Shown here piece after piece: positions 27,037 through 32,578 of a DNA stretch of 64,000 nucleotides. The stretch comes from Synechococcus sp. KORDI-52 (GTDB lineage: Bacteria; Cyanobacteriota; Cyanobacteriia; PCC-6307; Cyanobiaceae): positions 1,550,001 through 1,614,000 of the forward strand of contig NZ_CP006271.1 of NCBI RefSeq assembly GCF_000737595.1. The letters run 5' to 3'. Numbering within the stretch: the first letter of the stretch is position 1; each line of letters begins with the position of its first letter. The notes beneath the pieces are model-generated. The model did not search any database, was not told the DNA's origin, and saw nothing but the letters and a program-made list of their open reading frames with translations. The position numbers were made by a program, and so were the translations under genes.

Positions 27037-27879
27037 TCATTCAGCGACTGATGCCGGCACCCAGATTGCAGCGGTGTCATCCCCCAGGCCAACGGTTCGG
27101 CCTTCGAGGTATTCGAGACCGATCCAGGCGCAGATCAGGCCATCGAGCATGTCTTCCACTGGCTTGAGCGACGCCAGGGTTGTCACTTCGCAGGGATCGG
27201 GGATGAACTCCGGGATGCCGCGGATGTGTTCATCCAGGCCGTCTTTGATTGCGTGGAATTGTTTGAGCAGCCGTTGTATGCGTTCACTGCGTGTCAGCTT
27301 CTCGTCTTTCCAGTACTGGCCTGAGCGGCTCACCTTGTAGGGCACGCGGTAGTCCCGCTTGAGTAAGGCCAGCAGGGCGACATGGGGATAACACTCGATC
27401 AGAGCCTGGGTTGTCTGTTTGCTGGCGTTGGTGTGAAGGATGACCCCAAGGGCGGCGAAGTCGGCGCGCAGCTGATCGGCCATGCCGCCAGGGCGTTCGG
27501 CGGATGGGCTATGAACCGCGCAGCCGCTTGGCCCGAAGCGGCTGGAGATGGCGGTGTCCGCCGCCCGTCGGCTGGTGATCGGTGTGGTGGCCAGGGGCAT
27601 GTCGACTGACACGCAGCTCAGCTCTGCACCACTGATCTGTTTGGAGGCTTCGAGCAGTGCTGCTGGGTCGGGTCTGCTACCGGTGGCCTTTTGCTCTGGA
27701 TCCCAGGCTTGACCTGATGCCTGTGCGATGAAAGCTTCGTAGCTGGGGGCGATGGCCAGACAGCTCCATCCTGTCGCCGTGTTCTGCACCAGGGCGATGC
27801 CGCTGGGCTGATGGGCCGTCCAGGCGGCGTCGATGCCGAGGACGCAGGGTCCGTTGCCCGGATCAGATCGGCGTGCCAT
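27037..27879 (-). CDS. DUF429 family protein
   Basis: 280 residues. The N-terminus VLGIDAAWTAHQPSGIALV is the RNase H-like first strand of DUF429, followed by SVDMPLATTPITSRRAAD, ALIECYPHVALLALL and the C-terminal DMLDGLICAWIGLEYLEG that is the family hallmark. The fold suggests a nucleic-acid or nucleotide-active enzyme, but no function is established. A second ORF-free gap of 5 bases separates it from the vapBC remnant upstream. Confidence 0.88.
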   Translation of the reverse strand: MARRSDPGNGPCVLGIDAAWTAHQPSGIALVQNTATGWSCLAIAPSYEAFIAQASGQAWDPEQKATGSRPDPAALLEASKQISGAELSCVSVDMPLATTPITSRRAADTAISSRFGPSGCAVHSPSAERPGGMADQLRADFAALGVILHTNASKQTTQALIECYPHVALLALLKRDYRVPYKVSRSGQYWKDEKLTRSERIQRLLKQFHAIKDGLDEHIRGIPEFIPDPCEVTTLASLKPVEDMLDGLICAWIGLEYLEGRTVGLGDDTAAIWVPASVAE

Positions 27880-27883
27880 CGAA

Positions 27884-28096
27884 CTACCAGAGATTGACCA
27901 ACTTCAGGCCAATGGGATCGAAGTCTGCGGTGTTGCGGGTGGCCAGTTGCCCGTCATGGGCGAGAGCCGTCGCCGCGATCACGACTCAAGGCTAGGTGCT
28001 GATGGCTTGTCGCTCCTGGATGGCAACTCCAACTCGGCGCTGCCGGAGCCGATCGCGCACGGTGTCGTCGAGCCTGCGGATCGTTAGGGTGGCCAT
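27884..28096 (-). pseudogene. fused remnant of a VapBC/FitAB toxin-antitoxin pair
   Basis: MATLTIRRLDDTVRDRLRQR at the start is the ribbon-helix-helix antitoxin N-terminus (FitA/VapB). The same frame then runs QERQAIST, stop (TAG), one codon, stop (TGA), then VVIAATALAHDGQLATRNTA and DPIGLKLVNLW, the C-terminal part of a PIN-domain VapC toxin. An internal deletion has fused the two genes and two stops have followed. Both proteins must be inactive. Confidence 0.72.
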
Positions 28097-28182
28097 GGTG
28101 CTGACGTTGCCAGCAGTGCTGTCATTGCTAGCAACGCTAGCGATGGGCATGGGCGGGGTCTGTCTGCGGGTCTGTTGGATCC

Positions 28183-28335
28183 ATGCCCGGGCTGTCCCAT
28201 CTCTCAAGGTCGGCACGCATTGCTGCATTTATGCCGCAGGGGCGCCGTTTTGCCGATCTGGCGGGGCAGAACGGCGAGATCGATCTGAGTGATCAGATTG
28301 ATGAGGTGGTGCGGGAGATTCAGAATGGCGATTGA
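28183..28335 (+). CDS. possible small protein, 50 aa
   Basis: Frame with RIAAFMPQGRRFADLAGQNG and acidic C-terminus DQIDEVVREIQNGD. The latter resembles the toxin-wrapping tail of small antitoxins, but no ribosome site or DNA-binding part is visible. May be a remnant. Confidence 0.35.
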   Translation: MPGLSHLSRSARIAAFMPQGRRFADLAGQNGEIDLSDQIDEVVREIQNGD

Positions 28336-28371: not shown

Positions 28372-29157
28372 ATGTATCTGCCTCTGTATGCCCAAATGCT
28401 GGCGGTGCCGCGTGATGTGATCACGATGGCCAGTGCCAGTGGCGATGCAGTTGCGGCACAAATGATCATGGATTCCCATGATTTTGATGTTCTGCCGGTG
28501 GCAACCGATCGTCCCGGCGGATTGATTGCCTCTTACTGGTATCGCCGAGAGCGTTCTGGCCTGCCGCAATGCTTCCCCGTGCTGGCTGAAGACATGCTTC
28601 CGGGCCAAACGCCGATCGAGGTGGCTTTGGATGTGATTCTTCGCTCCGACAAGCCTTTTGTGTTCATCCGCGATCGGCTGCGCGTGACGGGGTTGCTGGG
28701 CTTGTCAGACTTCAATGGCAACGCCTTTCGCGTTTATGTGTTCTCTCAGGTGGTGATGCTGGAAATGCTGTTGTCTCGCTTTGTGGAGCACAAGCTCGGC
28801 AACGACGTTGTGGAACAACAGATCTCCCAGCCAGGGAGGGAACAGCTTCAAAAGGATAAAGATCAGGGATTGAACTATTCACCTTGCCACTATCTCTATT
28901 TCAAGGATTTGTTGAATCTCTGCGGAGAACGCCGGCTTTATACCGATCTGGGTTACCCCTCAAAATCGCAGTTCGAGAAGCTGAATTCTGTAAATTTGTT
29001 GCGAAACAGTGCTGCCCATTCCACCAAAACTTTGATCCGCAACCGATCCGAGGCCGAAAAACTTCTCGAACGCCTGCGCAAAGTTGATGATCTCAGTTTC
29101 CGCATTCGTGGATCAGGTTTGCCGGATCACTGCTTCCTCCAGGTGAATCAAGGTTGA
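28372..29157 (+). CDS. CBS-pair protein with C-terminal HEPN-like domain
   Basis: 261 residues. Residues 13-57 (VITMASASGDAVAAQMIMDS, FDVLPVA) and 71-115 (PIEVALDVILRSDKPFVFI, VTGLLGLSDFN) read as two CBS repeats, a nucleotide-sensing module. Residues 120-240 are helical and contain LLRNSAAHSTKTL, i.e. R211-N-S-A-A-H216, the R-x4-H motif of HEPN ribonucleases. Together they suggest a ligand-gated RNase or a tRNA/cNMP sensor, possibly for phage or stress response. It lies between two gene remnants in an accessory region. Confidence 0.65.
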   Translation: MYLPLYAQMLAVPRDVITMASASGDAVAAQMIMDSHDFDVLPVATDRPGGLIASYWYRRERSGLPQCFPVLAEDMLPGQTPIEVALDVILRSDKPFVFIRDRLRVTGLLGLSDFNGNAFRVYVFSQVVMLEMLLSRFVEHKLGNDVVEQQISQPGREQLQKDKDQGLNYSPCHYLYFKDLLNLCGERRLYTDLGYPSKSQFEKLNSVNLLRNSAAHSTKTLIRNRSEAEKLLERLRKVDDLSFRIRGSGLPDHCFLQVNQG

Positions 29158-29315: not shown

Positions 29316-29621
29316 ATGACTACTGCCTTCCCGTCGACTGGGGATTTCCTTGCCGAGCGCGGCACCCTTGAACGTGAAGAACTCGATGCGGCGTAACTGG
29401 AGCTGCGCCGGGTGAAGGAGGAGCTGTCCACTTGCCAGCTTCTGATTGTGCTGGTGCTTGAAATCCAGGCCGTGGTGCAGGAGGTCATGCAGGCCTTCGC
29501 CGATGCGGAGATCTTTAAATCAAGCCTTGGCACAGGCAAGGGTGATGTCGTTCCAGCACTCCAGTCCCTCTCTGATTCTGCGTCTGCAGCTCCTCACACC
29601 AGGCCCCGATCACTGGGCTGA
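29316..29621 (+). pseudogene. truncated copy of the LuxR-type regulator
   Basis: From 29397 on the translation (LRRVKEELSTCQLLIVL, AVVQEVMQAFADAEIFKSS, LGTGKGD) is clearly paralogous to residues about 85-145 of the complete regulator at 31868-32578; the DNA-binding part is absent. Upstream in the same frame, ATG at 29316 with AAGGGGG gives MTTAFPSTGDFLAERGT and stops at TAA (29394) before the homologous part. A partial duplication that has decayed. Confidence 0.65.
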
Positions 29622-31668: not shown

Positions 31669-31842
31669 ATGTCACCGATCTATGAATTGATCTTCAAGCA
31701 TCAGGGCCAGCTGATGACCAAAACAGTGCAGGTCGCTGACGCCTCCCAGGCCTGGCAATTGGGGAGACAGCGCTATCCCCATGGCATGAGAGATGTCGTC
31801 TGCCTTGATGCTGCTGCAGCTGAACCCGATCAGCAGCGCTAA
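31669..31842 (+). CDS. small protein, 57 aa
   Basis: MSPIYELIFKHQGQLMTKTV followed by ADASQAWQLGRQRYPHG. A short alpha/beta fold with an RYPHGM motif. It ends 25 bases before the regulator's start and the two share the strand, so they may be cotranscribed. No family recognised. Confidence 0.65.
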   Translation: MSPIYELIFKHQGQLMTKTVQVADASQAWQLGRQRYPHGMRDVVCLDAAAAEPDQQR

Positions 31843-31867
31843 AAGGAGGGCACCTGATCGGCATCAG

Positions 31868-32578
31868 ATGGAGCTGCGGCTCGAGTCGCCCGCGTTGAGC
31901 GCGGCCATCGAAACGACGGCGCAGTTCTTCCGCAAGCAGCGGGTGGTGGCCTGCTGCGGCGATCGCTTTGCACTCGCCTGCCTCTGCCTGGCCGAGCCGA
32001 TCCGCCGTGCCCTGGTGGGTGCCGCTACCACCGAGGCGGAGGGGGTGCAGCTGGTGCTGCGCACCCGGCCGAGCCTGTTGATCTGCACGTCGGATCTGGA
32101 GACGGGCTACGGCATGAATCTGCTGCGGCGGGTGAAGGCGGAGCTGCCCACCTGTCAGTTGCTGATCGTGCTGGAGCGTGAAACCCAGGCCGTGGTGCAG
32201 GAGGCGATGCAGGCCCATGCCGATGCCGTCATCTTCAAATCAAGCCTTGGCACGGGAAAGGGCGATTTCACCCAGGCCCTTCACACCCTCGCCGAAGGCG
32301 GTGTGTATTTCCCCGAAGAGATTCGCCGGCTTGCCGCCGCTGAGCTGCCCCACCCGAACCTGCCTCCCTTGATTGAACACCTCACCGAGCGGGAACTCGA
32401 GGTGGTGGCGGGGGTGGCCCGTGGCCTCACCAACCAGGCCATCGGCAGCAGGCTCGGCATCTCGGTGGAAACGGTGAAGACCCACGTGATGAACGCCAAA
32501 GACAAGTTGGCTGCGGCTGATCGCACCCAGCTGGCTGTGATGGCCCTCCTTTACGGCCTGATCGATCCCCTCGGCTGA
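31868..32578 (+). CDS. LuxR-family (NarL-like) response regulator
   Basis: 236 residues from MELRLESPALS (the frame is open to 31793 but would overlap the 57-aa gene). The N-terminal 150 residues resemble a receiver fold (VVACCGDRFALACLCL, RPSLLICTSDLETGYG, LLIVLERE) but the usual Asp-Asp-Lys phosphorylation residues are not clear. Residues about 170-230 form the GerE-type HTH: LTERELEVVAGVARGLTNQA, GISVETVKTHVMNA KDKL. A degenerate partial copy lies at 29316-29621. Confidence 0.88.
   Translation: MELRLESPALSAAIETTAQFFRKQRVVACCGDRFALACLCLAEPIRRALVGAATTEAEGVQLVLRTRPSLLICTSDLETGYGMNLLRRVKAELPTCQLLIVLERETQAVVQEAMQAHADAVIFKSSLGTGKGDFTQALHTLAEGGVYFPEEIRRLAAAELPHPNLPPLIEHLTERELEVVAGVARGLTNQAIGSRLGISVETVKTHVMNAKDKLAAADRTQLAVMALLYGLIDPLG

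Follow-up and report, generated by a model that had tools for sequence, protein, structure and literature searches.

What does a single gene with a CBS pair and an HEPN-like domain do in a cyanobacterium, and is it a defence gene? The window that we analysed is a stretch of 64,000 nucleotides from Synechococcus sp. KORDI-52, corresponding to positions 1550001-1614000 of a one-contig genome of 2,572,069 bases. A first-pass annotation, made from the sequence alone, had described in this window a protein with two CBS-like halves followed by a helical domain carrying an R-x4-H signature, and we found the ORF, its coordinates and its residue numbers to be as given there (Table 1). The ORF contains no internal stop, its length equals that of the family, and relatives of the same layout occur in cyanobacteria, haloarchaea and Bacteroidota; given this long stop-free frame and the conservation across the family, we rejected a frame or annotation artefact. 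The genome holds one match to the protein. The composition of the gene is foreign, with a GC content of 52.4% and a GC3 of 59.8% versus 57-65% and 69-82%, respectively, in six neighbouring genes.

Table 1. Positions (in the window) of the CBS-HEPN gene, its parts and the surrounding gene remains.
Feature	Position	Strand	Basis or remark
CBS-HEPN gene (P0001)	28372..29157	+	261 aa; ORF list and relatives of the same layout
CBS half 1 (residues 13-57)	28408..28542	+	structure match within 6-122; F/Y conservation; alignment A7
F38, at the position of DS-11 Y157	28483-28485	+	within CBS half 1
CBS half 2 (residues 71-115)	28582..28716	+	structure match; D113 kept, Gly at 110
Helical HEPN-like domain (residues 117-250)	28720..29121	+	pLDDT, domain model, HEPN rows top in VIA-align
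R211-N212-S-A-A-H216 (R-x4-H motif)	29002..29019	+	alignments
DUF429 gene, left border of the variable block	27037..27879	-	PF04250 E 2.1e-12
vapC remnant (residues 106-141 only)	27875..27982	-	sequence comparison
vapB remnant (residues 1-49 and 82-101, different frames)	27985..28150	-	
rmuC 3' end scrap, about 37 codons (114 bases)	28222..28335	+	81% to G147 RmuC residues 363-399
LuxR-type response regulator fragment	29403..29594	+	repeats part of the full copy
Full LuxR-type response regulator	31793-32578		2.4 kb downstream of the fragment

Searches with the protein alone returned no domain from Pfam, no relative from the genome contig collection and no match among PDB sequences. A PHROGs search gave a best E value of only 0.01 or worse; in the same database, a haloarchaeal relative (L006) weakly matched an abortive-infection family (E 0.048). 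We saw no sign of a phage-borne gene, as the protein had no match in phage records and viral contigs searched with it or with profile A3 yielded no confirmed match.

Relatives emerged from broader searches. Using tblastn against plasmids (E <= 1), we obtained eight records, seven haloarchaeal and one from Hymenobacter; outside the cyanobacteria, our survey comprised plasmid records and E. coli genomes. Profile A2 matched in 36 of 386 genomes of the phylum, including 265-aa proteins of filamentous cyanobacteria, a count which, like the family listings, includes weak rows that are CBS-only matches in other proteins. A search of the contig collection gave 97 relatives, of which we kept 80, under names such as Nostoc, Anabaena and Microcoleus. 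Alignment A4 uses 78 of these 80 loci, with L100, whose frame stops at 200 aa and thus before the motif, and L079, an identical copy, excluded; alignment A6 uses 61 of 67 distinct relatives, with L103, L114 and L121 among those excluded. Within the cyanobacterial family to which the window belongs, 12 of 400 genomes matched, and these comprised the window gene, seven CBS-HEPN-DUF3293 fusions (G051, G059, G102, G137, G171, G221 and G372), one equivalog of the E. coli defence protein DS-11 and three partial or CBS-only matches (G159, G164 and G348). No other member of the genus was among the matches of the own-family searches (3 and 12 of 400 genomes matching), and the 20 other genus genomes listed had no match to the gene.

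The profile check that the first-pass annotation had proposed supported the CBS pair and weakly favoured the HEPN domain, both of which came to light when the A4 relatives, rather than the window protein alone, were searched. Pfam CBS was found at E <= 0.1 in 77 of 79 A4 proteins, the window protein not being one of them, and HEPN_Swt1 was found below its cut-off in 56 of 79 (E <= 0.1; best 5.1e-4), a level which other, unrelated Pfam families also reach in up to 11 members. We predicted the structure from a 79-row alignment (mean pLDDT 77), and residues 6-122 of the model aligned with CBS pairs with Z up to 12.8, in agreement with the two halves originally proposed; the best Foldseek E value was 1.1e-4, and the VIA-align list for the whole model was filled by CBS proteins. 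As modelled, then, the N-terminal half has the fold of a CBS pair. Position 38 is always aromatic, with F or Y in the 78 A4 rows and in the 15 other rows of alignment A7. D113, which the window protein keeps, is identical in 78 of 78 and 14 of 15 of these rows, while position 110, a Gly in the window protein, is Thr in 78 of 78 and 13 of 15. Two of the 15 other A7 rows are also in A4, so these paired counts overlap.

An R-x4-6-H motif is the mark of HEPN superfamily ribonucleases. R211, N212 and H216 are identical in all 78 filamentous-cyanobacterial relatives of A4, and the same three residues are identical in all 15 other A7 rows, which come from archaea, Hymenobacter, Rhizobium and E. coli. 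A further relative (L039, from G698) reads RDELAH, keeping R and H with D in place of N. By these alignments, the protein carries a conserved motif of the kind expected of an HEPN ribonuclease; variation of R and H among homologues, which would have told against the first-pass claim, was not seen. The fold itself was less clear-cut. In the full model, pLDDT was 85-92 over residues 131-200, 65-79 over residues 201-250 and 65 in the motif block; the C-terminal domain modelled alone reached 79.8, yet only 63 in the block that bears the motif. The best VIA-align rows for this domain model were AF_0298 (Z 8.0), MntA-HpeT (7.8) and Csm6 (7.5), and 6 of the top 12 rows (Z 8.0 to 6.3) have HEPN or HpeT in their titles, all of these at values of Z <= 8.0 that are common for helical models and below the 13 advised for helical bundles. 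We take rows 7bxo and 8jbb (Csm6) to be HEPN proteins, and 1wty and 1jog perhaps so. Foldseek with the domain model alone gave nothing significant (best E 0.98). Since HEPN proteins are among the best VIA-align rows and the motif is conserved, we conclude that an HEPN fold is likely for the C-terminal domain; this part of the original description is thus favoured rather than proved, with the Pfam HEPN match remaining below its cut-off.

The closest characterized protein of this build is DS-11. The available part of the 2026 DefensePredictor paper (PMC13092281) describes E. coli DS-11 as a one-protein CBS and HEPN system that stops phage, and reports that its defence is abolished by Y157A in the CBS part and by HEPN mutations. 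We took WP_000257686.1, an E. coli protein of 365 aa found via the G132 protein, to be DS-11 from its NF053863 name, its product name and its Tyr at 157. It passes NF053863 (DS11_antiphage) with a score of 404.9 versus a cut-off of 260, and at the DNA level its gene was matched in 128 of 5426 E. coli genomes, with 80% or more of the query covered in 126. Against the same model, the window protein was not reported at E <= 10, and relatives scored 20 (L042), 15 (L002) and 19.9 (L006), with L007 not listed. BLASTP of the window protein itself against DS-11 was not significant (E 0.32). Profile A5, which has 15 rows with the window protein among them, matched DS-11 over both the CBS pair and the HEPN domain with 54.1 bits. 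Split in two, the profile scored 32.9 bits with its CBS half and 17.4 bits with its HEPN half (E 0.2 for a million sequences), versus a best score of 7.8 in 2000 shuffles. Counting against kinship with DS-11, the CBS half, a domain of very wide occurrence, contributes more to the A5 score than the HEPN half does. In a tree of 28 proteins, DS-11 was split from the rest with branch support 100/99, and the window protein was a lone long branch of unsure placement.

Like the window protein, DS-11 is a single gene with a CBS pair, then a C-terminal HEPN or HEPN-like domain and an R-N-x3-H motif, and its Y157 falls at the position of the aromatic F38; unlike the window protein, it has an extra N-terminal region of roughly 110 residues. 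At the profile level, the CBS-HEPN order and its domains appear homologous to those of DS-11, most strongly in the CBS half, and the window protein looks like a minimal, separate variant and a distant cousin of DS-11. Our preferred reading, which we hold with moderate confidence, is that it is a single-gene HEPN ribonuclease gated by an adenine nucleotide that acts against phage through growth arrest, of DS-11-like build and belonging to a separate, shorter lineage. We graded DS-11-like defence slightly lower because the HEPN half matches DS-11 weakly and the models are of low confidence around the motif; a putative defence role is nevertheless likely, by distant homology and context. For the window protein, we infer the dimer, the nuclease activity, the ligand, the trigger and phage defence as follows. 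Two CBS-HEPN protomers would pair, with an adenine derivative bound by the CBS pair at a site of which F38 is part. If the ligand changed during infection, this would rearrange the dimer, two R211-N212-x3-H216 motifs would come together in one active site, and the resulting cutting of RNA would stop phage production.

The first-pass annotation had suggested that no CBS-HEPN defence protein of this form was described in marine cyanobacteria, and this novelty was not sustained. The accessible text of Anantharaman et al. 2013 (PMC3710099) already notes CBS-HEPN fusions, including alr3009 and a Pelobacter protein, with the CBS-to-HEPN join as in the window protein; some bear HD domains, unlike the window protein. 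Given these fusions and DS-11 itself, as covered by the parts available of PMC3710099 and PMC13092281, the architecture is not new; the lineage of the window protein is separate. The part available of PMC10696648 describes an MNT-HEPN pair in coastal Synechococcus bins, without CBS, and that of PMC6563490 holds nothing on the CBS-HEPN kind. Csm6 resembles the window protein in joining a ligand-sensing domain to an HEPN or HEPN-like domain, but its sensor is CARF rather than a CBS pair. Csm6 profiles did match weakly over the HEPN region of the window protein (NCBIfam E 0.0082; PADLOC E 0.0018), and we rejected membership on the score of 15.2 bits versus a cut-off of 150 and on the match of the sensor half to CBS pairs.

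The DUF3293 fusions, found in the own family and in Hymenobacter, share the CBS pair and HEPN-like domain with the window protein, with motifs of RNHLAH, RNHIAH, RNDLAH or RNWIAH, and differ by the extra DUF3293, which the window protein lacks. DUF3293 was identified by Pfam in G059, G221 and Hymenobacter and by BLASTP in the rest, and is partial in G372. Our literature search found no paper on DUF3293; this domain could add a further component to the defence protein. The fused loci are L157, L164, L158-L162, L004 and L039. We also considered that a DUF3293 had been lost just downstream of the window gene and rejected this, as tblastn finds none in the window.

We asked of the neighbourhoods, as the first-pass annotation had suggested, whether relatives stand among defence genes, and the answer was divided. 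Defence-type genes lie near five of the seven own-family DUF3293 fusions: HsdM, AbiEi and AbiEii in G051; HsdM (scanned) and AbiE genes (by eye) in G102; JAB and ThiF in G171; ThiF in G221; and TIR in G059. At the loci of G137 and G372, where neighbours were read by eye without a domain scan, no defence-type neighbour was recognised. The DS-11 equivalog of G132, which lies in the same cyanobacterial family (L163:7047-8180; 337.8 on NF053863), stands near an HSDR_N protein. In filamentous cyanobacteria, the neighbours are varied, with the commonest family in at most 26 of 79 loci, and those nameable by eye are not defence genes. That setting suits a sensor of cell physiology, in which the CBS pair would sense the cell's adenylate energy state, leaving the HEPN domain to trim RNA in starvation or darkness, defence being incidental. 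Such a role would also fit a common gene, and in families f7 and f11 full-length copies (E <= 1e-100) occur in 88 of 192 and 20 of 61 genomes, respectively (119 and 42 at any strength); moreover, the available part of PMC3710099 proposes nucleotide-controlled RNA stability for CBS-HEPN fusions. We regard this alternative as unlikely. The spread is patchy, with short or split, remnant-like matches in G502, G558, G463, G869, G891 and G908, as for accessory genes, and the neighbours of the DUF3293 fusions are of defence type. In addition, DS-11 of the wider group is, per the available part of PMC13092281, an experimentally tested defence protein. Overall, the context of the relatives favours defence.

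Haloarchaeal plasmids suggested a possible partner. We compared five type-1 loci (L005, L006, L008, L009 and L010; records H11, H13 and H16 were left out), and each of the five carries a conserved 118-aa gene in divergent orientation to the CBS-HEPN gene; three of them also have an 89-aa gene that follows. The two 118-aa proteins scanned had no Pfam match above the cut-off, and this gene is a possible regulator or partner of CBS-HEPN. The annotation of two haloarchaeal plasmids also places an ADP-ribosylglycohydrolase gene close to CBS-HEPN (L006:6655-7635 and L005:4140-5048).

A conserved divergent gene is what one might see if the protein were an HEPN toxin that has lost its antitoxin, or whose antitoxin has escaped recognition, with the CBS pair serving as a brake instead. 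MNT-HEPN toxins are among the best fold matches of the HEPN domain, and the site in the window is rich in toxin-antitoxin remains. The vapBC pair is dead, vapB and vapC surviving only as fragments, which agrees with the decaying accessory block that the first-pass annotation had seen here; in G267 (L137 8505-9244), an intact-looking vapBC pair could be named by eye. The DUF429 gene that borders the block has a match in 13 of 34 genus genomes, this one included, and at the G249 site (L136:5960-6268) an MNT-like nucleotidyltransferase lies near DUF429 (by eye; PADLOC PDC-S09). The site collects toxin-antitoxin genes. We nevertheless judge a toxin role improbable: no neighbour family is shared by more of the filamentous-cyanobacterial loci than stated above, and DS-11 acts as one gene in the available account (PMC13092281). 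No adjacent MNT nucleotidyltransferase was recognised in the window's ORF list or in five scanned neighbours, the small ORFs being scanned in part. Least probable of all is a decaying passenger without present function, which the surrounding scraps, the absence of the gene from the other genus genomes listed and the missing Thr of CBS half 2 would suit, and against which stand an ORF intact at family length and the retention of R211, N212, H216, D113 and an aromatic residue at 38.

Returning to a DS-11-like immune ribonuclease, we tentatively entertain a broader proposal, of which we are less than half persuaded: that nucleotide-gated immune RNases of the CBS-HEPN type make up a broad family with several lineages, reading an adenine-derived infection alarm, with DS-11 as one branch, a chromosomal backbone gene in filamentous cyanobacteria and a minimal picocyanobacterial copy. 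The lineages in this proposal are DS-11, the DUF3293 fusions, the two haloarchaeal types, the filamentous cyanobacteria and the window protein. If it is true, DS-11 would be one branch of a wider family spanning bacteria and archaea, whose smallest members (about 261-275 aa) would be simple objects for finding the supposed adenine ligand of DS-11. This ligand question can be tested directly through the F38 position and the R-N-x3-H motif.

How the gene came to lie here is suggested by the rmuC scrap, which ends 36 nt upstream of its start. The block from DUF429 (27037) to the response regulator (31793) is mosaic, with seven genus-relative stretches rearranged there. Of 34 genus genomes, 8 carried rmuC in whole or in part, and defence genes adjoin its 3' end in five of the eight and lie within 2 kb in one. 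The intact rmuC of the window's own genome (1986812-1988248) faces, at its 3' end, a NucS-like nuclease and hsdR (both by Pfam) and, named by eye, hsdS and hsdM beyond them, that is, a type I R-M system with a nuclease; a type I R-M system also adjoins it in G285. In G147, the neighbours' best PADLOC names are PLD_Helicase, HmaB and HmaC, and two neighbouring proteins in G089 match this set with 96.6% and 80.5% identity. DrmA/DrmMI-like genes adjoin an rmuC scrap in G162. The case within 2 kb is that of G249, with a cysteine-desulfurase-like gene (by eye; Pfam Aminotran_5) and SspB after it. No defence genes were seen at the rmuC 3' ends of G174 and G261. The rmuC 3' end is thus a defence hotspot in this genus, bearing type I R-M, Hma-like, DISARM-like and Ssp-like genes, and it is a place to seek further ones.

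Given the rmuC scar beside it and the defence genes at rmuC 3' ends, the CBS-HEPN gene probably passed through this hotspot. The scar tells the origin of a piece, not the function of the gene. In the five bordering loci, the defence genes stand tail to tail with rmuC, whereas the window gene runs in the same direction as the scrap and away from it. The hotspot loci are G000:C1:1980000-1988248 (L180), L181, L186, L187, L188 and L190.
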